Source: Thermoplasmata archaeon (GTDB taxonomy: Archaea > Thermoplasmatota > Thermoplasmata > Lutacidiplasmatales > SKW197). From it: 64,000 nucleotides of DNA. The notes under the pieces were generated by a model, which saw only the letters and a program-made list of their open reading frames with translations, did no database searches and was not told where the DNA came from. Shown piece by piece: positions 40,208 through 56,158 of this stretch (position 1 is the first letter of the stretch; each line of letters starts with the position of its first letter). The position numbers and the translations under genes were made by a program. Location of the stretch: NCBI GenBank assembly GCA_038874435.1, contig JAVZCK010000012.1, forward strand, positions 1 to 64,000, written 5' to 3'.

Positions 40208-40287
40208 CTAGATTATGAATTTCAAATTCTTGCCTCACGACTGCTGTAACTCCATTGGAACTATGTTTTAAGTCAAAACACGATATT
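40208..40287. other. Trailer end of the CRISPR array, short intergenic
   Basis: This 80-bp AT-rich gap lies between the VWA gene and the distal end of the array. It is on the trailer side, because the crRNA is inferred to be read leftward. No gene is seen. Confidence 0.5.
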
Positions 40288-43200
40288 TTTCAATCCTACC
40301 TTAGTCCAGTTTGAACAGACGAAGATGTTGCTGTTGGCAACAGAACAGTAACATTTCAATCCTACCTTAGTCCAGTTTGAACGCTATTGCGAAATTTACC
40401 CCCATTTTTGCATTTTGATTTCAATCCTACCTTAGTCCAGTTTGAACTGGAATTATTTTAACTCATGTTCAAATTATAGCAGTTATTTCAATCCTACCTT
40501 AGTCCAGTTTGAACGATATAATTTTAATAGAAACAAATAATGGTTATCATGATTTCAATCCTACCTTAGTCCAGTTTGAACTAGGGCTGGAAGATTTCTT
40601 AAAAGATTTAGATTAAAGGGATTTCAATCCTACCTTAGTCCAGTTTGAACTTAAGATAGAGCAGTTATATCCCAAATTTCTTTATTAATTTCAATCCTAC
40701 CTTAGTCCAGTTTGAACATGAAATCCTCTCTTGTCCAATAACTGTAAGTGTCATTTCAATCCTACCTTAGTCCAGTTTGAACCCATTCCTTCATAATTGT
40801 ATAATAGTGTCTTGAATAAATTTCAATCCTACCTTAGTCCAGTTTGAACATGAATATGGTTTAAATAAAATACCTAAACTAATATTATTTCAATCCTACC
40901 TTAGTCCAGTTTGAACTAGTGAAAATACAGCAGAAGCAACAACTTTATTAAAATTTCAATCCTACCTTAGTCCAGTTTGAACAAAAATGATGGAGAAAAA
41001 AGGATATAAAAAAGGAATATTTCAATCCTACCTTAGTCCAGTTTGAACCATATAACCTGCTTAAGGTATTTGAGGATGTTGATAGATTTCAATCCTACCT
41101 TAGTCCAGTTTGAACACAAAGGAGATTTAAAGGAAGGTGAATAAATGCCCGTATTTCAATCCTACCTTAGTCCAGTTTGAACATCTCACATCTCAATCCA
41201 TTATCAAATTTATCACTTCATTTCAATCCTACCTTAGTCCAGTTTGAACTAATCCGATAAAATGGGAACTATTAATGGACATATATAATTTCAATCCTAC
41301 CTTAGTCCAGTTTGAACACTTCAGAAAAAATATTGAATTTTCATATAATCCAAATTTCAATCCTACCTTAGTCCAGTTTGAACACAAATTGAAAATATTC
41401 CTACAGAAAGCGATATTATTATTTCAATCCTACCTTAGTCCAGTTTGAACTAAGTTTACTTCCAACATAAATAATTATTTCTTTTTATTTCAATCCTACC
41501 TTAGTCCAGTTTGAACTAATCCATAGTATTTTAAATTTGAATAGTTTTTATACATTTCAATCCTACCTTAGTCCAGTTTGAACAAAAAGAAGATTTGAAA
41601 AAAACGGAGAAGGAAATGGAATTTCAATCCTACCTTAGTCCAGTTTGAACCTGGCCTGGCAAGCATACCAGGCTGGGACTGATTTATTTCAATCCTACCT
41701 TAGTCCAGTTTGAACCATTCAGGTTTAAAAACAAATTGTTATTTGGTTATAGATTTCAATCCTACCTTAGTCCAGTTTGAACTATCTGCAACATCAAAGC
41801 GGGCGGTGTGGGCATAACATATTTCAATCCTACCTTAGTCCAGTTTGAACTGGGAGAGGCAACAAGTTATTTTTTCTGTTTTTGATAGATTTCAATCCTA
41901 CCTTAGTCCAGTTTGAACTGAGAAGAGCGAGAAATGCGGAAATGCTGGTTAAGATATTTCAATCCTACCTTAGTCCAGTTTGAACGCAGGCGATTTTGAA
42001 ATCACAGTTTAAGACACTTTAATTTCAATCCTACCTTAGTCCAGTTTGAACCATCGCCGTGTTTGCAGAACTGGGCTGGACGCCAAGATTTCAATCCTAC
42101 CTTAGTCCAGTTTGAACTCGCAAACCTGTCCCGCTCAGTTACTTCACACTCCCATTTCAATCCTACCTTAGTCCAGTTTGAACCACACGCATCTTCTGAT
42201 TCAGTTCTGTCAAATTGGCATTTCAATCCTACCTTAGTCCAGTTTGAACTCTCCATTTTTTCACCTCTCAATATGTCCACAGCTTCTATTTCAATCCTAC
42301 CTTAGTCCAGTTTGAACATGGCTGTGGTTGCAAAATCATAGCAAATTTCAGAAATTTCAATCCTACCTTAGTCCAGTTTGAACCAAGGATATAGATTTCA
42401 GGACAATCTATGAGGAAATATTTCAATCCTACCTTAGTCCAGTTTGAACAGAGAATCAGGTTACTACCGAACAAAAAGGTGCTGGTATTTCAATCCTACC
42501 TTAGTCCAGTTTGAACTGGATATTTGCGGAGGGAGAAGCAGGATGTGTTGAAATTTCAATCCTACCTTAGTCCAGTTTGAACAGGCAAGGTGGGCGTTTG
42601 AAAAACTCAAAGAATCTTTATTTCAATCCTACCTTAGTCCAGTTTGAACAACAGCTCCTGATTTCTTTCCAGTCAATCCGTGCTACATTTCAATCCTACC
42701 TTAGTCCAGTTTGAACGTAGATTGACTCTACAGGTATATCCACAGAAAATCTTATTTCAATCCTACCTTAGTCCAGTTTGAACTATTCACCAAAACTCAT
42801 TCTGTTTTTGTTAATATAATTTCAATCCTACCTTAGTCCAGTTTGAACACCACAATGGCTGCCAAAACCTGAAGGTTTTGTCTAATTTCAATCCTACCTT
42901 AGTCCAGTTTGAACGATTTTGCTCAAGAAAGTGCATATACGATTTTACAGGATTTCAATCCTACCTTAGTCCAGTTTGAACGGATTGAAGTAATACTCCA
43001 CAATCGCAACACATCCGCACTTATTTCAATCCTACCTTAGTCCAGTTTGAACTATGCTATTATTAGGGAGATGATAGAAAAAGGTATATTTCAATCCTAC
43101 CTTAGTCCAGTTTGAACGAGAGTTTTGCTTTTGGTGTTGTTTATGAGGGAGAAAAATTTCAATCCTACCTTAGTCCAGTTTGAACCAAAAGATAGATGCG

Positions 43201-45993
43201 AATTTTGATAAGGTAAGCGATATTTCAATCCTACCTTAGTCCAGTTTGAACTATAGTGAAGATGGTATCTGGGGATATTGGAATTTTAAATTTCAATCCT
43301 ACCTTAGTCCAGTTTGAACGATTTAATTCTTTATCGGGAGGAGATAGAACAGGATTATTTCAATCCTACCTTAGTCCAGTTTGAACGAGGTTGCTGAAGA
43401 AGATGTGAGAGTAATGGATTTGCTATTTCAATCCTACCTTAGTCCAGTTTGAACTTCTCAATTCGTGCAAACTAAATTTTTCCTCGTCTGATTTCAATCC
43501 TACCTTAGTCCAGTTTGAACTTTTGTTTGAATTTGCACAAACTCATTACCGCATAACTATTTCAATCCTACCTTAGTCCAGTTTGAACCCTGGGAGTGGC
43601 CTGGTGGACGCATACCTGTCCACCATTTCAATCCTACCTTAGTCCAGTTTGAACTTGAACGGGATTTCTTGCATTTTTTCTTGATTTACTATTTCAATCC
43701 TACCTTAGTCCAGTTTGAACCCTGTCCTATGGAATGGCCTCCGTAAAGCCCTACTGTTCTATTTCAATCCTACCTTAGTCCAGTTTGAACTTTGCAGATT
43801 TGTGGTTCAAATCTGACCCGAGATTTGTATTTCAATCCTACCTTAGTCCAGTTTGAACTTGAGATGAAATGGTATGAGTGGGATAAGAAAAACATATTTC
43901 AATCCTACCTTAGTCCAGTTTGAACATGCGGTTTATGTGTGGTGGAGGAGGGGCACGATTATATTTCAATCCTACCTTAGTCCAGTTTGAACGGTATTGA
44001 TGCGGCTATTGAGCATATCAGTCGTATCATTTCAATCCTACCTTAGTCCAGTTTGAACTATAAACAATAATATCATTAATCCCGTAAAAAATACATTTCA
44101 ATCCTACCTTAGTCCAGTTTGAACTATTGGTAATTCTTTTCCTCTCATTTCTATTTTTGTGTTATTTCAATCCTACCTTAGTCCAGTTTGAACTTTAAAT
44201 GGTGATGATAGGGTATTACCCCAAGCACATTTCAATCCTACCTTAGTCCAGTTTGAACACATTTTTGAGTATTTTTTTGCAAACAAAAATACTATATTTC
44301 AATCCTACCTTAGTCCAGTTTGAACTTGAAATCGTGGCTAATCCTCCTTGCAATGTAGTATTATTTCAATCCTACCTTAGTCCAGTTTGAACGCAAATCC
44401 TCATTTCAAAACATGCAGGGGGTTCACAAATTTCAATCCTACCTTAGTCCAGTTTGAACACGGTGCGGATTTAAGCCCAAACAAAACCATTTGCTCCAAT
44501 TTCAATCCTACCTTAGTCCAGTTTGAACCTTACAGACATGTTTTACTCCTTAATTTATTAGCATATTTCAATCCTACCTTAGTCCAGTTTGAACCATGCA
44601 TTACCAACACAGCATTGTAGCCAGTCGCACTATTTCAATCCTACCTTAGTCCAGTTTGAACTATGAAAAGGTATTTAATATATTCCAGTAAAATTTACAT
44701 TTCAATCCTACCTTAGTCCAGTTTGAACAAACACATCAGCACCAGATACAGCATTTTCCGATGCATTTCAATCCTACCTTAGTCCAGTTTGAACTAAAAA
44801 GTGCGGTAGTATGATGCATTTGGTTAACAGTATTTCAATCCTACCTTAGTCCAGTTTGAACATAGTTTGTAATGTTTAACATTTATGTTTAAGTTTGATT
44901 TCAATCCTACCTTAGTCCAGTTTGAACTTCTGCAATTCCACTATGCTTTTCACTATTTGCGTTCATTTCAATCCTACCTTAGTCCAGTTTGAACATGCTC
45001 CAGCATCAACAAACTATTGGATAAATGCATATTTCAATCCTACCTTAGTCCAGTTTGAACGTATTTCCGTGAGGGAACTGTCCCTTCCAGCACAAAATTT
45101 CAATCCTACCTTAGTCCAGTTTGAACGGCTAACATCAGATGCATAAGCATTCACAACACTGCTATTTCAATCCTACCTTAGTCCAGTTTGAACATGTAGT
45201 ATTAGAAGTTGAGTTGGTTGTTTGCCCAAATTTCAATCCTACCTTAGTCCAGTTTGAACATTAGCATCTCTGCTATCATGTCTAATTCCGCCTGTATTTC
45301 AATCCTACCTTAGTCCAGTTTGAACAATATGCGTTAATGTAATTGCGTTTGTGTATGATAGATTTCAATCCTACCTTAGTCCAGTTTGAACCAGGCGGAG
45401 GATAGGTTGCACAGGATTGGGCAAGCTCATTTCAATCCTACCTTAGTCCAGTTTGAACTACTGGGATAGTGAGTTAACGGATAGCGAGAATGACTATTTC
45501 AATCCTACCTTAGTCCAGTTTGAACTAATTTCATTTCAATCCACCCCCCTGGCAAAATCCACATTTCAATCCTACCTTAGTCCAGTTTGAACTGGCGAGC
45601 ATTACATTGTTTGATGACAAGGCGACATATTTCAATCCTACCTTAGTCCAGTTTGAACTCTTAGAAATCGCTAATCCAATACTTCCAAGTATCATATTTC
45701 AATCCTACCTTAGTCCAGTTTGAACAGAAATGAAAGAATACATTAGGGCAATGAGAAATGCGTATTTCAATCCTACCTTAGTCCAGTTTGAACCCGCATC
45801 GCATAATGGCGTATAACCCAGCAAAAAAAGATTTCAATCCTACCTTAGTCCAGTTTGAACCAGGACAATCTATGAGGAAATAGAGAGGTATTATAAATTT
45901 CAATCCTACCTTAGTCCAGTTTGAACGTTTGTATGATAGGTTTCAGCCAGTTAGTGTGTATATATTTCAATCCTACCTTAGTCCAGTTTGAAC
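40288..45993 (-). CRISPR. CRISPR array, 86 repeats of 30 bp and 85 spacers
   Basis: The repeat on the plus strand begins ATTTCAATCC and ends CAGTTTGAAC, 30 bp. I counted 86 copies by hand, with spacers of about 35-41 bp. Only the first copy (40288) differs, T for A at its first base. On the minus strand the repeat ends GATTGAAAT, the type I 3' end that leaves an 8-nt ATTGAAAT-like crRNA handle. The altered terminal repeat lies at the left end, as expected at the old, leader-distal end. Both facts put the leader on the right, and crRNA is transcribed leftward. The copies I read are otherwise uniform. Confidence 0.98.
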
Positions 45994-46047
45994 ACGGGCA
46001 AGTTTTTGAGATTTTGTGGGTTTAAACGCAAATTCATTACCTTAATT

Positions 46048-46101
46048 GTCGGGGATGTATAATAATGTATTCCTCACGCATGGATCCCCGACGAATACAT
46101 T
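46048..46101. repeat. Two interleaved 9-bp inverted repeats in the leader
   Basis: Arm A is GTCGGGGAT (46048-46056) with its complement ATCCCCGAC (46084-46092). Arm B is AATGTATTC (46064-46072) with its complement GAATACATT (46093-46101). The order is A, B, A', B', with A' and B' abutting exactly. Both pairs are perfect over 9 bp. They could be operator sites or alternative hairpins. Confidence 0.85.
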
Positions 46102-46346: not shown

Positions 46347-47621
46347 ATGGTTAGCACAGAAGCCATAAAATCCGCAATAGTGGATAAGGAAGAGGAATTG
46401 AAGAGTAAAGTGAGAACTGAGAAAATAGTAGAAAGGGAGCTAAAAGTGGAGAAAATAACTGAGGATGTAGCAAGCATAATTACAGGAGTGAGAAGATGCG
46501 GTAAATCTATGCTTGCGTTTATGTTAACTCAGCAGAAAAATGCTGCATATGTAAATTTCGAGGATGAAAGACTCCAGCTAAGACGGGAAGAACTGAATAC
46601 CCTCCTAGAAGCCATAGCCTCCTTAAAGGGGAGCGTGGAGTTTATAGTCTTCGACGAGATTCAGTATGTTGATGGCTGGGAGAGATTCATATCCAGGATA
46701 TTACCAACTAAAAAAGTGATAATCACGGGCAGCAATGCGAGGTTAATGAGCAAAGAATTTGCAACTTTTCTAACTGGGAGACACATTGACTTTGATCTTT
46801 TTCCTTTCAGTTTCAGGGAGTACTTGCTCTTAAACGACTTCAACCCAAACATGTACCTAACGGCGGATATAGCAAAGACAAAAAATTTGCTGGTTGAATA
46901 CTTGAAAACGGGCGGTTTCCCCCTAGCCCATAAGGTAGGAGGACGTTTCATCTCTGAAAACTATAGTGATATTGTTGAGAGAGATGTAATCCTAAGATAC
47001 AACATCAAATTTAAGAATGTGCTGAAGGAGTTGGCAAAATGCTATGTTTCAAACTGCGCACAGGAAGTGTCATTCAATAGACTGAAAAACATCTTAAACT
47101 TAAAAAGCGTCCACACAGTAAAAGATTACACTGGTTATCTCTCCAATGCATATTTAATTTTCTTATTAGAAAAATATTCTCCAAAACTTAAGGAGAGTAT
47201 TATTGCACCAAAGAAGATTTATTGCATAGACAACGGGATTGTAAATACAATCGGCTTTAAAATATCTGAAAATATTGGTAGCTTAATGGAAAATCTGGTT
47301 GCTGTAGAGTTGTTGAGAAGAAGAAGTTATTGGGCCAAAGAATCAGAGGTCTATTATTGGAAGGATGCTCAGCAACACGAAGTAGATTTCGTAATCAAGA
47401 ATGACAGGAGAGTAACTCTCTTAATTCAAGTCACATGCGCATCGGGAAAAGATGAAGTTGAAAGAAGAGAAATTAGGTCTTTAATTAAAGCTTCTGAGCA
47501 GCTAAATTGTAAAGAATTACTAACAATCACTTGGGACTATGAAGATAAACTGAAGATTGAAAACAAGACAATTAAATTCTTACCTATGTGGAAATGGCTT
47601 ATAACTTCTCACCCGCCCTAA
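46347..47621 (+). CDS. AAA ATPase with C-terminal DUF4143-like nuclease-fold domain
   Basis: Walker A is GVRRCGKS (residues 47-54) and Walker B is FIVFDEIQYVDGWE (about 100-113). GSNARLMSKEFATFLTGRHI and LFPFSFREYLLL are the AAA_14 signatures. The C-terminal domain has SLMENLVAVELLRRR, EVYYWKDAQQHEVDFVIKND and LLIQVTCA, the DUF4143 pattern with a PD-(D/E)xK-like fold. These ATPases are widespread and of uncertain role, often linked to mobile elements. It is divergent from the CRISPR array and convergent with cas2, so it is inserted between leader and cas genes. Confidence 0.9.
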   Translation: MVSTEAIKSAIVDKEEELKSKVRTEKIVERELKVEKITEDVASIITGVRRCGKSMLAFMLTQQKNAAYVNFEDERLQLRREELNTLLEAIASLKGSVEFIVFDEIQYVDGWERFISRILPTKKVIITGSNARLMSKEFATFLTGRHIDFDLFPFSFREYLLLNDFNPNMYLTADIAKTKNLLVEYLKTGGFPLAHKVGGRFISENYSDIVERDVILRYNIKFKNVLKELAKCYVSNCAQEVSFNRLKNILNLKSVHTVKDYTGYLSNAYLIFLLEKYSPKLKESIIAPKKIYCIDNGIVNTIGFKISENIGSLMENLVAVELLRRRSYWAKESEVYYWKDAQQHEVDFVIKNDRRVTLLIQVTCASGKDEVERREIRSLIKASEQLNCKELLTITWDYEDKLKIENKTIKFLPMWKWLITSHPP

Positions 47622-47640
47622 GCAAATACTACAATGACAT

Positions 47641-47904
47641 TTAAATAATCGTGCCTAACTGGGCTTTTTCAACACCAATCGTTTTAATTTTTACAGCATC
47701 AGATGTTCTCAGAATGTAAATCCTCACAGAATCTACATTCTCGTCTATAATCTCCTTCAAGCCACTTTCTACACGCAAGAATTGAGAGTCAGTTAATTCG
47801 CCTTCAAACACTGAATTCTGCACCCATGCCAGAAAACAACGCAAGAAGTTGCACACTTTGGAAACCCTTTCCACACTCACATCATACACAATTATCACAT
47901 ACAT
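47641..47904 (-). CDS. cas2: CRISPR-associated endoribonuclease-fold protein Cas2
   Basis: The protein begins MYVIIVYDVSVERVSKVCNF with the conserved Asp8 of Cas2, then WVQNSVFEGELT, and ends with a short C-terminal strand. The length of 87 aa is typical. With Cas1 it forms the spacer integration complex. It lies 3 bases after cas1 and is the last gene of the operon. Confidence 0.96.
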   Translation of the reverse strand: MYVIIVYDVSVERVSKVCNFLRCFLAWVQNSVFEGELTDSQFLRVESGLKEIIDENVDSVRIYILRTSDAVKIKTIGVEKAQLGTII

Positions 47905-47907
47905 ATT

Positions 47908-48987
47908 CTACCACCATATAACAAACGGTTCATACGGTTTCAAGCTCAAAAATTCCTTGCAAAGTTTCAGACACTCAAGGTATATCAAGCGTTCGTAAGA
48001 CACATTTCTTCCAAGCTCTCTATGTTTTATCGTTGTCTTAAGCCGTTCATCAAAATCTCTAACAAATTTTTCTTTACCAGATTTATTAAGCAGGCATCCA
48101 TTCAATTCTTTCACAAAATCGTTTTCTGTAATCACATCCTTGTTCACAAGCTTAAAAATTGTTCTATCTACCAGAAACGGTTTGAAAATCTCTGAGATAT
48201 CCAAAGAGAGAGAAAATCTTCGCTCTGAAGGTTCATGAAGAAAAGATATTGTTTGATCCAGTTGCGTATGGTATATTGCATTTATCGTCACTCCATACAA
48301 GAGGGAGTTGCCAAAACTGATCATTGCATTGATTGGATTCTCTGGTGGGTGTTTTGTTCTACCCTCAAACTGAAATGTCTCCTTCAGAATTTTAGAAAAT
48401 GTGCCATAATAGATGTTCCTGATTGTTCCCTCTATTGCCATCAATTCACTCACATCATTGTACTGGTCTAAATTCGCGATATGATTTTTTATCGTAATAA
48501 TCTCCTCGTTCAGATTCTTACCCTCGTTCTGGTAATACTCCAGATTTCGCAGAATGTTTTTTGCAGCACCTTCGACAAATTTTCTTGCGAGTTTTAAACG
48601 CTTCATTCTATCTAGATAGTATGCTGCCTGTCTTATGTGCATCTCGCCAGAAAGCAAACTTTCATGCGGGTACAGTGTAGATTCATAATGTCCGTAATAG
48701 CCAAAGAAATGCACTGGAATTTTCTGCTTTGCCAGAAATGAGATTACTCCAGATGTTATTGACACCCTGCCAATTCCAAAAATTGAGTTGATCTGTTCAA
48801 TTGGTAAAATTCTTCTCTCATACTCTGGCTTTTCAGACAAATTCTCGGTTTCTACCTCTACTTCCTCTCCATCCACTTCTGCAGAAAATGGCTGTGGCTG
48901 GCTTTCATCCTTTGCAAACACAAAGTACACTGTGTTCTCCTTCCGAAGCAGTTTTCCATTTCTCAAGATGTAATAGTTTACTTTCAT
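47908..48987 (-). CDS. cas1: CRISPR integrase Cas1
   Basis: This is the integration nuclease. The expected catalytic segments are visible: LMAIEGTIRNIYYGTF (first Glu), QLDQTISFLHEPSERRFSLS, then LDISEIFKPFLVDR (His and Asp/Glu). The N-terminal beta-sandwich and the DRMKRLKLARKFVEGAAKNI helical segment fit Cas1. I chose the ATG at 48987, which begins MKVNYYILRNGKLL, because the longer frame overlaps cas4. The resulting 359 aa is normal. Confidence 0.97.
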   Translation of the reverse strand: MKVNYYILRNGKLLRKENTVYFVFAKDESQPQPFSAEVDGEEVEVETENLSEKPEYERRILPIEQINSIFGIGRVSITSGVISFLAKQKIPVHFFGYYGHYESTLYPHESLLSGEMHIRQAAYYLDRMKRLKLARKFVEGAAKNILRNLEYYQNEGKNLNEEIITIKNHIANLDQYNDVSELMAIEGTIRNIYYGTFSKILKETFQFEGRTKHPPENPINAMISFGNSLLYGVTINAIYHTQLDQTISFLHEPSERRFSLSLDISEIFKPFLVDRTIFKLVNKDVITENDFVKELNGCLLNKSGKEKFVRDFDERLKTTIKHRELGRNVSYERLIYLECLKLCKEFLSLKPYEPFVIWW

Positions 48988-48991
48988 TTTC

Positions 48992-49558
48992 TCACACCCA
49001 GCAGAATTCGTAATAGGCACAGGACTTGCAATAGGGTTTGTAAACGGGCTTTGGAGATTCTGGTAAAGAGATTATCTTATTAATCTCTTCCAAAATTCTC
49101 AACATTTCAGATTCTTTCTCAGCAGTCAAATTTACTTCTGTCCTCTTCCGCTCACTTGGATACGCTACGATGCCCTTAACTTTCAAAACTTTCTTTATAT
49201 TTTTCAGATACCAGAGATAATACAGAACTTGATAGATGTGGGCTTCTTCAAACTTGCTTGATTTCTTTATATCTACCACAACCAAACCACCAGAACTTTT
49301 GACAAAATCTAACGAAATCTTATCATCTATAAGTAAATTTTTTGTTTTGATATTCTTGAAACTTTCTTTTTCAAGTATCTTACCAGCAATAACTAAATCA
49401 GATTCTTGTTCATATGTAATATAATGAGAAAAAAGCCAGAGCTGGGTTTTGCAATGAAAATAGTAGTTTACCTTTACTCCACCTACTAAAATCTCAGGGT
49501 CTATTTCTATGGTTTCGTCAGAGGATTCCGTAGAATTGCTTTGCCCCTGCAACACCAT
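48992..49558 (-). CDS. cas4: CRISPR-associated exonuclease Cas4
   Basis: This RecB-type nuclease with an iron-sulfur cluster trims pre-spacers and helps select the PAM. Cysteines C36 (YFHCKTQLW) and C177, C180, C186 (CKSCAYYEFC) are the cluster ligands. The VVVDIKKSSKFEEAHIYQVL segment has the nuclease motif II/III residues and QVLYYLWYL motif. The length of 188 aa is typical. The first 41 bp overlap the upstream gene. Confidence 0.95.
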   Translation of the reverse strand: MVLQGQSNSTESSDETIEIDPEILVGGVKVNYYFHCKTQLWLFSHYITYEQESDLVIAGKILEKESFKNIKTKNLLIDDKISLDFVKSSGGLVVVDIKKSSKFEEAHIYQVLYYLWYLKNIKKVLKVKGIVAYPSERKRTEVNLTAEKESEMLRILEEINKIISLPESPKPVYKPYCKSCAYYEFCWV

Positions 49559-50537
49559 AAATACCTCTATGCTTCTTCAGCTCTGTGTTGCACTTTATTT
49601 CTATAATCTGTGAAAGAAGCTCCCCATTAATACGGTGATATCTGAGGAGATAATACACCAACATCTCCCTTTTTTTGGTGGCCAATTCTCTGAGTTGTTG
49701 GTCAGAGATGTTTACAATTGAATTCAAAAATTCAACTGTAGTGTTTTCTGGATTTAACCACTTTTTAATTAGATTTATAGATTGAGGGAACACATGATAC
49801 ATCCCTTTTGTTTCTCTCCCAAATATTACTAATGTCGTATTTTCAGACCACCCAAAATCCGCTCCAAATTTTTCAGAAATTATTCTTTCCCATGGTTCAA
49901 CATTGGTTTCACCTTCATATTTACGCCAATCCTCCAATCCTTTAACTGCCCAGAACTGGAGAAGTACTAGTGTGCTGAAAAACGGCTGCGATGCAGGATT
50001 GAACCTGATTTTAAGTCTCTCCATTATTGGTTTGAAATCCAGGCCTTTCCTTCCCATTATCACCGTAGATGTTATTAGCGTATTCCGCAACCATTTTCTG
50101 CCAGAATCGCCGATATTATCCATATTAACGATATAGCTGCCGAATTTGACCCCCGTATATATTAAGTACAGAACTCGCCAGAGCTCCTCCTCTTCTTCAA
50201 CACCTTCTCCGATCATATTCAAATTTGACTCTTTAATCATAGTGGGCCAAATAAATGACTTGGCTTCTTCATTTATAGATTGTTCAACAATAACTTCCAG
50301 AAATTCCATAATTTTATTTCTAACCATTTCACTGTTGTTTTCTTGTTTATATTTATCAATATCGTTTTTTATTTTCCATCTCTGTCCCGCATACCCTCTA
50401 TCTGTCTCTTTAAAGGGCACAAGGTTAGGGAATATATCCCAAATTCCCATTATGTACTCTGTGTCCACATTGTAGTTTCCATCTACATCTTTCTCAAAAA
50501 TAAACTCTCTAAGTTTTTCTTTCCACATTTCTTTCAC
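49518..50537 (-). CDS. Candidate Cas8a-type large subunit, 339 aa
   Basis: I do not recognise a definite family. The protein is soluble, mainly helical, with a KKREMLVYYLLRYHRIN segment and a C-terminal HRGIYGVAGAKQFYGIL tail. By position it sits between cas3 and cas4 in a type I operon whose order (Csa5-like, cas7, cas5, cas3, this gene) matches type I-A, where Cas8a2/Csa4 of similar length follows cas3. The call is based on synteny and length. An alternative is an operon-specific accessory protein. It overlaps cas3 by 4 bp and cas4 by 41 bp. Confidence 0.5.
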   Translation of the reverse strand: MKEMWKEKLREFIFEKDVDGNYNVDTEYIMGIWDIFPNLVPFKETDRGYAGQRWKIKNDIDKYKQENNSEMVRNKIMEFLEVIVEQSINEEAKSFIWPTMIKESNLNMIGEGVEEEEELWRVLYLIYTGVKFGSYIVNMDNIGDSGRKWLRNTLITSTVIMGRKGLDFKPIMERLKIRFNPASQPFFSTLVLLQFWAVKGLEDWRKYEGETNVEPWERIISEKFGADFGWSENTTLVIFGRETKGMYHVFPQSINLIKKWLNPENTTVEFLNSIVNISDQQLRELATKKREMLVYYLLRYHRINGELLSQIIEIKCNTELKKHRGIYGVAGAKQFYGIL

Positions 50538-52675
50538 CCCAGGACTGTGTTTAGCTCTTCATTTCTTATAAAACCATACCTTTCGTGGTAAACAAAATTC
50601 CCTGCTTTATTAACGAGTGGCAAACCTCCGTATCTTCTATCTACACATCCTTTCACAGAATATATTGGCACCTGAACAGCATACCCCTTCAGTTGTGAGA
50701 CAACAGATAACTTTTCGTCTTCCTCTTCGTATCTTTTTATCAATCTTTCAATTCTACCCATCAAAGCTTCCCCTTCTTCGGTCTCAGAGAAAATGAGACC
50801 CGTGTATGGGATTATCAAAGTTGTGAAACTCTCTCGATAGGACAATAGTTTCATTGCCTCTTCCTCTGATATATCCAAGCTGAAAAAATATCCAGCCCTA
50901 TTTGTGTTTTCAAACCCAGTTTCAAGCTTCAATTCATCTCCTGCCTTATTGAGCTTTTCTAACATCTCCTCTTTTGAGTATACCTCATTCAGCTTATTAA
51001 ACAACTCAAGTTCAGTTTTTATCTCCCGCAATTCCTCTAAAAATTTTTTAGAAATTTCTAATTCATCTCGTTCGTAGGGATAATATTTTTCATTTTTTAC
51101 TTCGGGATTGTAAATAAACACATTCACTTCTCTTGTCGTTTTACCTCTCCTGTTGACTCGCCCGAATCTTTGAATAAGAGATGGCAACGGTGCCAGCTCT
51201 GTGAACATCACATCATATGAAATATCCAAAGATACTTCACAGACCTGTGTAGCGACCAATATATGTGGAGTTGTCGCTAACTCCTCAATTTTTTCCTCAA
51301 TTTCTCTTCTAGTGTTGTATATAAACCTCCCATGAAGGAGAAGAGAACATACTCCTTCGTATTTTTCTATTTCACGCTTAATTTTCACGGCACTTTCAAC
51401 TGTGTTGCAGATAACCAATACTTTCTTCTTTTTACCTGCTTCTACAACTTTGGCCACTTCCTCTGCAAGCATGCACTCCCTCACTTCAAATTTAACCCTA
51501 CATAGGTCAGCACACAAACTAATTCTATCTACAAAATCTTTCTCATTTGTTATTATGCCCATTTTTTCTCGAATTGCCTCTCTCAACCCGTCTGGAAAAG
51601 TGGCAGACATAAATAAAATATTAAGATTGTAAACATCGATGAATTTTTTAAAAATATGAAGTAATAAAAAGAGCATTTTATCATTTAGTAGATGCACTTC
51701 ATCTATAATAACTGCAGTATTCCTGAACATTACACGTTTCATATGATAACTACCTGTCTGAAGAAATGAAAGCAGAACTTGGTCAATAGAGGTTATCATA
51801 TAAGGTTGGAGAAAATGCTGGCTTTCAAAAATTCGCCAATCAACATAGCTCTTTTCTAGTCTTTCATCTGCAATCTCAACATCATAGAAGTAGAAATACT
51901 TCCCAACATCTGAATCAAATAAGTTGCTCAATTTATTATGAAAACTATTTATTGCAGTGATAGTTGGAAAAATAAAGAACACTTTTTTTATATCTTTATT
52001 AATAATATATAAAGGAGATGCACTAGTTTTTCCCCAACCAGTAGGTGCTCTCAGAAAACCGATTCTACCTATATTCTTGATATCCTCTTGCTCCGCCTTC
52101 CTATATGGGTCGTTAAGAAAACTATTCAAATTTGCTTCATTTAAATCGGGCTTTCTGGGTATATATCCAGATTTAGAAGATGCAGATAGACAATCTGCAA
52201 TCTTGAAGAGGCCATACGCATCAGCGAGTTCCACTCTTTTTTTGAAATCAAAAGTGTTAAAGAACCAACTCCTCAATTTTCCTTCTGGCCCCAACGACTC
52301 AATCAATTCTCGGTATCGCTCAAATCCTGTAGTTACTCTCAAGTTTCCATGGTGTTTTAGAATAAGGTATGCTACCAAGCAGTCATATTCACCAAGATCT
52401 TGTTTTTCTTCGGATTTCTTCTTGAGATAATATTGTACAGAAAAATCAGCATGCGTCGTCTCCCCGTTGAAATTCCAAGCTGGATTGAGCTTACCCCAAT
52501 CATGGTATTCTATTACTTCCGAAATCATCTCTTCTATCTTTTTGTCGTTCAATCCGTAAAAAGACGAGAATTTCCTGTATATTCGTCGTACTTCATCTAC
52601 ATGGCAAAAAAGACATTTGTTTGGATGACTTTCTTTCGCATAGGGAGATTCCCATTCTATCCTTATGTCCTCCAT
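50534..52675 (-). CDS. cas3: CRISPR helicase-nuclease Cas3 (HD plus helicase)
   Basis: The HD nuclease domain is at the N-terminus (EYHDWGKLNPAWN with H58-D59, and later KHHGN at about 107-111). The SF2 helicase has Walker A APTGWGKT (about 210-217), DEVH-type motif II (VIIDEVHLLND), MSATFPDGL (motif III) and QRFGRVNRRGKT (motif VI). This single chain unwinds and degrades target DNA after Cascade recruitment. A C21-C24 pair near the start is extra. Type I-A systems often split Cas3 into two genes. Here it is fused. Confidence 0.96.
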   Translation of the reverse strand: MEDIRIEWESPYAKESHPNKCLFCHVDEVRRIYRKFSSFYGLNDKKIEEMISEVIEYHDWGKLNPAWNFNGETTHADFSVQYYLKKKSEEKQDLGEYDCLVAYLILKHHGNLRVTTGFERYRELIESLGPEGKLRSWFFNTFDFKKRVELADAYGLFKIADCLSASSKSGYIPRKPDLNEANLNSFLNDPYRKAEQEDIKNIGRIGFLRAPTGWGKTSASPLYIINKDIKKVFFIFPTITAINSFHNKLSNLFDSDVGKYFYFYDVEIADERLEKSYVDWRIFESQHFLQPYMITSIDQVLLSFLQTGSYHMKRVMFRNTAVIIDEVHLLNDKMLFLLLHIFKKFIDVYNLNILFMSATFPDGLREAIREKMGIITNEKDFVDRISLCADLCRVKFEVRECMLAEEVAKVVEAGKKKKVLVICNTVESAVKIKREIEKYEGVCSLLLHGRFIYNTRREIEEKIEELATTPHILVATQVCEVSLDISYDVMFTELAPLPSLIQRFGRVNRRGKTTREVNVFIYNPEVKNEKYYPYERDELEISKKFLEELREIKTELELFNKLNEVYSKEEMLEKLNKAGDELKLETGFENTNRAGYFFSLDISEEEAMKLLSYRESFTTLIIPYTGLIFSETEEGEALMGRIERLIKRYEEEDEKLSVVSQLKGYAVQVPIYSVKGCVDRRYGGLPLVNKAGNFVYHERYGFIRNEELNTVLG

Positions 52676-53376
52676 TCCCCCACCAATACAAATTTATGGA
52701 GTGGATAGAGCGCAATGTACTTACCGCTTACTTCAACCGTATTTATTTCATTCATACGCTCCTTTTTCAGTTTGACACACCCATTAAGAATAAATGTGAA
52801 ATTTTTATCAATATCTGCCAAATTATGGTTTACGGGCAATATCTGGAAAGAGGTACCCGATGTTATCTCGCCAATCCACATGGTTGGGATATAATTTGAG
52901 ACGAACTCACTATTCTTAATTTCAAAATTGCCAACAATTTCCCAATCTTTTACGAAAAAGTCATTTTGACCACCAAATGGGAGATAACATATCGCTTTAC
53001 TGAGCTGATTGCCTATTTCCATAATCTTTGATTCATCACCCCCAATTGCTATTAAGTATGTGGGCTCGTTAAGAATTGAAATGGTTTCTACGCCCTTACC
53101 CCTATTCTGCTGTTTAAGTTTACTGAAGAGCATATAGGTAGCATTCTCCCTGTTTTCGGCAATTTTTTTAGAAGAATCTACACATGCACCGAAAACACAA
53201 TCTGTAAAGGTGCGAGCAGCATTTCTTCTTGAGAGCCCAAGCATACTTCCAAACATTCCAGCTACAGATGTTGGCAGCGGAATGGGATAGCTCAGCCTGG
53301 AAGTTTTAGTATAGTGCACTTTAAAGAACGCTTCGAAAAAGGTAATCCTAATTACCAGAGCTTTCATATTCTTCAT
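52663..53376 (-). CDS. cas5: CRISPR Cascade subunit Cas5
   Basis: The protein begins with KALVIRITFFEAFFKVHYTK, then SYPIPLPTSVAGMFGSMLGL, the Cas5 N-terminal RRM-like motif with the conserved proline/threonine and G loop. It caps the 5' handle of the crRNA in Cascade. The length of 237 aa is typical of Cas5a/Cas5t. It overlaps cas7 by 4 bp and cas3 by 13 bp. Confidence 0.92.
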   Translation of the reverse strand: MKNMKALVIRITFFEAFFKVHYTKTSRLSYPIPLPTSVAGMFGSMLGLSRRNAARTFTDCVFGACVDSSKKIAENRENATYMLFSKLKQQNRGKGVETISILNEPTYLIAIGGDESKIMEIGNQLSKAICYLPFGGQNDFFVKDWEIVGNFEIKNSEFVSNYIPTMWIGEITSGTSFQILPVNHNLADIDKNFTFILNGCVKLKKERMNEINTVEVSGKYIALYPLHKFVLVGEWRT

Positions 53377-54248
53377 AGAAATTTAGTGATTTCGTCAACT
53401 GCCTTGCCGACACTAGCTTTTTCTATTTTTTGTGGTAAATCACCTATGCTGCCCTTGTAATCAATAAACAGTATTTTACTGGCTTTATTTACAATCTCTT
53501 CTCTGTTCGTAATCATTTTTAGGTTTTCTAAAGATATTCTATTATTTTCAAAATCATAATCGAGGTGTTGATAGATAGGTAATGGCCCATTTTCTGAGAG
53601 CACCACTAGTGATGCTATGTACTCTGGGATATTCAATGAATTTGTACGTCGTGGGAGTACGTATGCTGGCGCAAGCAAGATCTCGGCAAAATTTTTTATT
53701 CTTTTTGCCCGCTCTCCACCATCCAACACCGAGCCATCTTCAAATTTGCCTATATAGTCATACATTATGCAATTCAATTTTCCAACAAACTCCGCAATTT
53801 CGACTTCGAAAGGAACTGGGTTATCATCTACTTTGCCTGCCCATTGTCTTGGAAACCTTGCACCAAATTCGGATTTTACTGGTGTGTCCTTTATTGCTTT
53901 GAAATAAGAAAGGGCAACTGGTGCCTGGCGTCTCTCTGCGGTTTTACCTCTACCCTTTGTTGACATGTATCCAAAAAGATCATTGTCAACATACTTCTTA
54001 GGGTCCCCTGTATCTGCTAAGCGAAGCGCCTCTGTCGCCTTCGGATCACTAATAAATGGATCTACTTCCAAACCTCGGTTTCGTAACGCATCCCGTATCG
54101 CATACTTCACGGCTCTAGCAGACACGAATGGTAGTACTTCCCCACTTGAAGAGTACATTTTCTTCAGCGTCACTCTCGTACCAATCACTTCATCGGCGTT
54201 CACATTGCCCGATATCTTTCCTAATATCGATACTTGTACGACTTTCAT
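53373..54248 (-). CDS. cas7: CRISPR Cascade backbone subunit Cas7 (DevR/Csa2/Cst2-like)
   Basis: The RRM-like start VVQVSILGKISGNVNADEVI, then GTRVTLKKMYSSSGEVLPFV, then SARAVKYAIRDALR, is the Cas7/DevR signature, with VDNDLFGYM, then a RQAPVALSYFKA segment. Multiple copies form the Cascade backbone along the crRNA. The length is 291 aa. Both Csa2 (I-A) and Cst2 (I-B) families share these segments, so subtype cannot be fixed from this gene alone. Confidence 0.94.
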   Translation of the reverse strand: MKVVQVSILGKISGNVNADEVIGTRVTLKKMYSSSGEVLPFVSARAVKYAIRDALRNRGLEVDPFISDPKATEALRLADTGDPKKYVDNDLFGYMSTKGRGKTAERRQAPVALSYFKAIKDTPVKSEFGARFPRQWAGKVDDNPVPFEVEIAEFVGKLNCIMYDYIGKFEDGSVLDGGERAKRIKNFAEILLAPAYVLPRRTNSLNIPEYIASLVVLSENGPLPIYQHLDYDFENNRISLENLKMITNREEIVNKASKILFIDYKGSIGDLPQKIEKASVGKAVDEITKFL

Positions 54249-54598
54249 TCTTCTTCGCCTCCTTTTTCTAATTCCTTACCTGACGAGGACAGTGCGTTCA
54301 GAAGACCAGTGAGTACTGCCGCTTTCATATAATAGAAACTATCTGCATGCCACTCTGTTCTCATTATTTCTGGATGTATCCATACATTTGCCTGGATATT
54401 TGTGTTCGTTTTATATTCCATCAACCTTTTAGACAACTTTTCTAAAAAGCGTCCTGGTGTTTCCTCAGCCCTTAAATCAAAGATCAAACGCCTGAGAAGA
54501 TCTCTCCCTGTATCTCTATCGTACATTTTTTCATTATTCACAATGTTAGCCCCAATACTATATGCCCAACCAAAGATTTGCTCATATGCCATGTTCAT
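54245..54598 (-). CDS. Candidate small Cascade subunit (Csa5-like), 117 aa
   Basis: This is a short, mainly helical protein (AYEQIFGWAYSIGANIVNNE, then DLLRRLIFDLRAEETPGRFL and YYMKAAVLTGLLNALSSS). It is the first gene of the cas operon and overlaps cas7 by 4 bp. Type I-A operons start with csa5, a small helical subunit of about this size. Sequence identity to Csa5 is not obvious by eye, so the call rests on position, size and helicity. Confidence 0.55.
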   Translation of the reverse strand: MNMAYEQIFGWAYSIGANIVNNEKMYDRDTGRDLLRRLIFDLRAEETPGRFLEKLSKRLMEYKTNTNIQANVWIHPEIMRTEWHADSFYYMKAAVLTGLLNALSSSGKELEKGGEEE

Positions 54599-55027: not shown

Positions 55028-56158
55028 ATGCTCGCAATAAAAATCCAGCAGAAAGACGGTGTTTTTTATTTCGTAAATTATCGTGCAGAAGACATTCTGG
55101 AAAAAGTCAGGTTCATGACTAGGTAATATCTGGAAGGGGAAGAGTTGCCTATGGAGAGTCCTAGTAAGAAAGAAGAGAACGATGAGATTGTAGAATTTAT
55201 CTCAAAGATTGAAAAAACAGATAAGGCATTCCAGCGAATGTTAATTCGCAGAAAGGTCAGAGATATAAGAGATTTTTATAGAAATGCTAATGAGCAGCCG
55301 CTGATCCCAGGTGCAATTCTGTTGTACACTCCTGAAAAACTCGATTTCAAACCATTGGAAAACTATGATACTGTTGGCAACCTCACCGAGCCGAGAGAAA
55401 AATACTATATTATCGATGGACAGCATAGATTAGCTGGACTTTATTTTTATGCCAAAGAGAATTCTGAAAATATAAAAAACATATATGTGCCAGTAATGAT
55501 TTTTGATGGGCGTCAGGAAGATTTCGCCGCCGAAATGTTTGTAATCATAAATTCCACTCATACCAAAATAAACAAATCCCATTTAGTGGACTTAATGGAG
55601 AAAGTGACCTTTAGTACTAGCAAGGAGAAAAAACTCGCTGCTAAAGTTGTCATTGGTCTGTATGAGGATGCAAGGTCTCCATTGAGATACAAGATAAACA
55701 GATTGGGCGGAAGGAGCAGACAGGAAAAATGGATCTTACAATCGGAACTCTTCAATGAAATTTACAAACTTGTGAATGACGAAAAGATACGGAAAAAATT
55801 TGGTGATGTCTCTTGGTTTGATTCGAAAATCACCTGCACGGTGACAGAATTATTTATCGACTGGTTCAAAGCTGTATCCAATGTATTCTCCCCAGAATGG
55901 GGCGATAAAAAATACATGATTACTGAAAGCGTGACCCTAAAAGCTTTTGTCAGGGTATTAGGCGAACTTCTAAAAGACAACACTACCTTTGACGAATGGA
56001 TGCGTGATAAAGCACCCAGGGTTTTTGAGCAAAAAATTGCAAAGTGGTCTAATATCAAAAACAAATTCAGAAGAGATGGGTTTTATGAGAGATACCCTGC
56101 AAAAGGACAAGTGGAGAGAGTAAAAATAATAAAAGACGATTTGATTAGAAATATGTAA
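55028..56158 (+). pseudogene. DGQHR-domain (DndB-like) gene with an in-frame stop
   Basis: The frame starts at ATG 55028 (GGTGG 6 bases before) and reads MLAIKIQQKDGVFYFVNYRA onward. Codon 33 is TAA (55124-55126). The same frame then continues uninterrupted to 56158 through YLEGEELPMESPSKKEENDE, EFISKIEKTDKAFQRMLIRR, and the signature YYIIDGQHRLAGLYF. The part before the stop is the expected DGQHR N-terminus, so the gene is probably a nonsense-mutated copy. Translation could restart at TTG 55145 or ATG 55151. DGQHR proteins include DndB and DpdB, which act with DNA-modification defence systems. No dnd or dpd partner is in the window. Confidence 0.75.

Follow-up and report, generated by a model that had tools for sequence, protein, structure and literature searches.

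In this Thermoplasmata archaeon, the Cas1-Cas2-Cas4 module of a type I-B CRISPR system very probably writes spacers both into its own array (array 1) and into the array of a type III-A system (array 2) that has a different repeat. Array 1 lies in the window, i.e., the whole stretch of 64,000 nucleotides that was analysed, and array 2 was found by searching the same genome with array 1. Two protospacers are represented in both arrays, each time with the same leader-side end. The coordinates of the features are collected in Table 1.

Table 1. Features of the two CRISPR loci; positions refer to the window unless a contig is named.
Feature	Position	Strand	Details
CRISPR array 1 (assigned to type I-B)	40287..45993	(-)	86 repeats, 85 spacers
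Array 1 repeat			30 nt; crRNA strand GTTCAAACTGGACTAAGGTAGGATTGAAAT
Spacer 32	42384..42419	(-)	54th from leader, older; crRNA strand ATTTCCTCATAGATTGTCCTGAAATCTATATCCTTG
Spacer 62	44393..44429	(-)	37 nt; 24th from leader
Spacer 77	45392-45428		reads QAEDRLHRIGQA on the strand opposite the crRNA
Spacer 84	45861..45896	(-)	2nd from leader; 36/36 nt identical to array 2 spacer 3, both ends
Array 1 leader	45994..46100	(-)	~110 nt alignable with array 2 leader
cas2	47641..47904	(-)	PF09827, 1.2e-20
cas1, I-B type	47908..49020	(-)	sole Cas1 match in genome
cas4	48992..49558	(-)	
cas8b-like	49518..50537	(-)	PADLOC only
cas3	50534..52675	(-)	
cas5b	52663..53376	(-)	
cas7b	53373..54248	(-)	
117-aa gene, first of I-B cas operon	54245..54598	(-)	without family match
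Array 2	contig C13, 18913-23136		52 repeats, 50 normal spacers; repeat GTCAAAACCCGATGAAAAGGGGACTGGAAC, 30 nt

By its Cas1, Cas7, Cas5 and Cas8b matches, the system of array 1 is assigned to type I-B. Cas1, Cas2 and Cas4 are all encoded at the locus, and Cas1 matches TIGR03641 with 427 bits against a cut-off of 304. The effector proteins Cas3, Cas5b, Cas7b and Cas8b are likewise present, with a Cas3 core match of 215.6 bits, a Cst2/DevR match of Cas7b above the cut-off (127 bits), and PADLOC matches for Cas5 (1.5e-17) and Cas8b (9.4e-21), the latter having no match in Pfam or NCBIfam. For the first gene of the operon, Pfam, NCBIfam and PADLOC gave no match; it possibly encodes a small subunit. 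Among named genomes, the nearest Cas1 proteins are those of Methanoculleus, Methanolinea and Methanoregula (58-61%), and this relatedness suggests that array 1 is archaeal. No cas6 was recognisable within the I-B operon. A second Cas6 is encoded on contig C6 (11713-12330), distant from both arrays, and may serve array 1; the idea of one Cas6 common to both arrays was dropped in view of this gene. An AAA_14/DUF4143 ATPase gene (46347-47621) lies on the opposite strand between the array 1 leader and cas2, and a DGQHR/DndB-like gene of a DNA modification-associated family (55145-56158) is located immediately past the cas operon. Since the cas genes are found at the high-coordinate end of array 1 and its sole deviating repeat, a degenerate copy at 40287, is the last one, the leader was placed at the high-coordinate end. 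Spacer 84 is therefore the second newest and spacer 32 the 54th, and the initial annotation was correct in taking the latter for the older of the two.

Array 2 directly follows csm1 to csm5, two CARF-domain genes and cas6, and is therefore regarded as a type III-A array; Cas10/Csm1, Csm2, Csm3, Csm4 and Csm5 all score above their curated cut-offs (5/5). No cas1 was found beside array 2, and the I-B Cas1 is the only one found in the genome, a draft of 43 contigs that is 95% complete. The cas1-cas2 pair that III-A loci usually, if not obligatorily, carry is lacking, as judged by the genome-wide search for Cas1 alone. Strand bias in the array 2 spacers, sought as a sign of RNA targeting, was not seen, as capture of the DNA type predicts. 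Spacers 12 and 16 of this array lie on opposite strands and have 25 nt in common. The old part of array 2 contains an insert of 831 nt (contig C13, 22008-22838), which, read by eye, reads as a nucleotidyltransferase/HEPN (MNT-HEPN) type pair, and a similar HEPN and nucleotidyltransferase pair is located immediately before csm1.

The TPR gene following array 2 is 76% conserved in the sole congener, G087, and the comparison supports the placement of contig C13 in the lineage of the array 1 genome. G087 also has an array at the same place (contig C31, 1-840). Its newer part is built from another repeat, GTCGACAAAACTACCCGAAACAGAAGGGTGTGGCAAC, and the trailer end of that array holds two old degenerate copies resembling the repeat of array 2, as if the repeat had been swapped during the life of the array. 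What the comparison shows is apparent repeat turnover at the III-A array locus.

Two pairs of spacers carry the argument for shared acquisition. In the first pair, spacer 84 of array 1 and spacer 3 of array 2, the sequences are identical over their whole length and agree both in their ends and in the way they face the leader. In the second pair, spacer 62 and the 36-nt spacer 19 of array 2 start at the same base on the leader side, and spacer 19 is one base shorter at the distal end, the common prefix being 36 nt. Counted from the leader, the pairs hold ranks 2/3 and 24/19 (array 1/array 2), i.e., they occur in the same order. The leaders of the two arrays agree by 88% over the 73 nt adjoining the arrays, and a genome-wide search with the array 2 leader matched two places only, both of them array leaders. 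Aligned in register, the repeats have the same base at 17 of 30 positions, whereas shuffling gives 8.2 on average (P 0.0003), and spacer lengths are centred on 36-37 nt in both arrays (35-41 nt in array 1, n=85). The leader, more than the exact repeat, is the greatest likeness of arrays 1 and 2.

We propose that both arrays would be recognised through their nearly identical leaders and 30-nt repeats, with the I-B Cas1-Cas2-Cas4, as we infer, being the integrator in each case. Because the leader-side ends coincide and one distal end differs, prespacers would be cut precisely at the end that comes to lie next to the leader, presumably the PAM end, and loosely at the distal one. The site covered by spacers 32 and 84 would have been captured at least three times, long ago as spacer 32 and recently as spacer 84 and array 2 spacer 3, and the second site, that of spacer 62 and array 2 spacer 19, into each of the arrays. 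The outcome would be a double memory of one invader, presumably a virus or plasmid, with the array memories being read by DNA-cutting I-B and RNA-guided III-A effectors and interference probably exerted by both. Against shared acquisition it has to be said that no protospacer was found for its expected hallmark, a common PAM, and that no match to the leader was found in G087, whose III-A locus has another repeat.

The initial annotation had noticed that spacers 32 and 84 overlap and had concluded that one foreign element was met at two times. The overlap was confirmed, with 21 identical nucleotides on the same strand at an offset of 15 (42399-42419 and 45861-45881), 51 intervening spacers and a joined length of 51 nt as originally given, and the third capture of the same site in array 2 lends support to the repeated encounter. 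It is conceivable, if somewhat doubtful, that spacer 84 was acquired by priming, in which the crRNA of spacer 32 on a mutated target leads to capture nearby and the TCT flanking spacer 32 is a possible escape PAM. Priming by type I systems is established, the element was met again once spacer 32 was already present, and the seed of this spacer lies within the 21 identical bases, so that any change would fall into the PAM or the distal 15 nt. However, no target sequence was found in which a mutation could be seen, and random sampling of one element would also be expected to give this many overlaps. Priming is compatible with shared acquisition by the I-B module.

An unlikely alternative to shared acquisition is that the III-A system has, or recently had, acquisition genes of its own that are missing from the draft, and that both systems independently captured the same favoured sites. 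The incompleteness of the assembly, in which a second cas1 might be missing, is in line with this, but the leaders are nearly the same, the search for Cas1 gave the I-B protein only, and the leader-side ends are base-exact in both pairs, which would be rare with differing cutting rules. Copying of the common spacers between the arrays, by recombination or recapture of array DNA, could explain the one pair with identical 36-nt content, but we consider it very improbable: the repeats and the spacers to either side are different, so that conversion would have no homology to use, and array DNA is flanked by repeat rather than by the captured flank. Moreover, since the distal ends of the second pair differ by one base, this pair suggests separately trimmed molecules and not copying between arrays. 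That chance overlap of unrelated targets accounts for the 21 nt common to spacers 32 and 84 can practically be dismissed, as the next longest common run among all 85 array 1 spacers on either strand is 11 nt and 300 shuffles of every spacer never gave a run above 17 nt.

Given shared acquisition by the I-B module, the pairs could be simultaneous captures, i.e., one infection could have supplied the same prespacer pool to both arrays; we regard this as a real possibility, though as somewhat less likely than not. When two pairs are drawn at random, an equally small difference in relative rank with the order preserved is obtained in approximately 3% of draws (P about 0.03), and the equal order and similar ranks, being suggestive only, weakly favour simultaneous capture. 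We also simulated random capture from PAM-limited sites and asked how often at least two same-site pairs arise while other overlaps stay few. The joint probability reached up to 0.26 if the PAM has 3 nt and the element is limited, and at most about 0.04 if the PAM has 2 nt. Since the simulation reaches 0.26, the same-site pairs alone need no special simultaneous mechanism, and the argument that there are too many coincidences for random capture was abandoned, since it finds no support when the simulation combines a PAM of 3 nt with a limited element. If the captures were simultaneous, the common spacers would be usable as time marks synchronising both arrays, with one versus two new spacers (array 1 versus array 2) since the later mark and 21 versus 15 between the marks, and the cell would hold a paired memory of each site, one at the DNA level and one at the RNA level.

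The spacer boundary, and hence the position of the PAM, can be fixed by comparing the repeat ends of the two arrays. The base preceding the spacer is T in 85 of the 86 array 1 repeats and C in 50 of the 52 array 2 repeats, and the common spacers start at the same base behind both. The repeat-adjacent base is therefore not part of the protospacer, which eliminates the alternative PAM, CTC, that had been considered. This comparison is a simple way of defining spacer boundaries without a protospacer. The preferred triplet, TCT, was correctly read if the crRNA is on the minus strand, although it is the single flank of one site; since it stems from a later encounter with the element, when spacer 32 was already in place, it may represent a PAM that had escaped. 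The initial annotation had related it to TCN-type I-A/I-B PAMs known from Sulfolobus. The Sulfolobus systems using TCN are of type I-A, and the parallel is inapt for the I-B system found here. TCN is nevertheless among the PAMs listed for type I-B (Vink et al., 2021, PMC8482600). In the same study, A at repeat positions -3 and -2 is mostly accompanied by T or C in the PAM. Since TCN is listed for I-B and the last three bases of the array 1 repeat are AAT, TCT is plausible as a PAM. It also fits the rules of that study in that this single flank and AAC, the last three bases of the array 2 repeat, have different bases at 3/3 positions.

Matching the spacers and the joined 51-mer to viral and plasmid DNA, as had been suggested initially, found no target. 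The exact 21-mer of the overlap between spacers 32 and 84 had no target in viral contigs or genome contigs, and no convincing protospacer was obtained with codon-degenerate patterns (joined 51-mer and joined array 2 spacers 12 and 16), with exact 20-mers of spacers 62 and 77, or with both arrays against phage and plasmid records, the host genome and 400 genomes from its class; the leftover matches were at chance level. The codon-degenerate pattern of spacer 77 matched one viral contig with 30/37 identity, and this site was rejected as its target since the match lies in a conserved helicase motif and represents a homologue. The reading of spacer 77, QAEDRLHRIGQA, is what we take to be the conserved last motif of SNF2 helicases, which suggests that its target is a helicase gene, with the crRNA antisense to the mRNA. 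A coding protospacer had also been assumed for spacers 32 and 84, the joined 51-mer being described as open in one frame. In fact, two of the six frames are open (+2, KDIDFRTIYEEIERYY; -3, IIPLYFLIDCPEIYIL), and because shuffles are similarly open (mean 1.8 open frames versus 2; 92.5% with at least one), openness is no evidence of coding and the peptide is not usable as evidence for a coding protospacer.

The present case has precedents. Among type III repeat clusters without their own acquisition genes, 95% carry a type I PAM, while the PAM frequency of III-A, 16%, is the lowest among the type III subtypes (Vink et al., 2021, PMC8482600). As in that study, a type III system without acquisition genes is found here beside a co-occurring I-B system; unlike there, where PAMs came from matched protospacers, the evidence is target-free and consists of protospacers that recur in both arrays with an unchanged leader-side end. 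Flavobacterium columnare, in which the VI-B system uses the II-C Cas1 and 58% of new VI-B spacers occur in the II-C pool as well (Hoikkala et al., 2021, PMC8092290), resembles our archaeon in having identical spacers, different repeats and cas1 in only one locus. The types differ, however, and in F. columnare the leaders differ, whereas they are nearly the same here, and proof came from a cas1 deletion. Like Marinomonas mediterranea with its I-F and III-B systems (Silas et al., 2017, PMC5576922), the archaeon combines type I and type III effectors with distinct repeats in one cell, but in M. mediterranea both systems have their own acquisition genes and sharing takes place at the crRNA level. 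Acquisition in trans is thus already known, and arrays 1 and 2 are a clear new example of it, adding natural, target-free evidence that a single I-B acquisition module also supplies a III-A array whose repeat differs from that of its own array.
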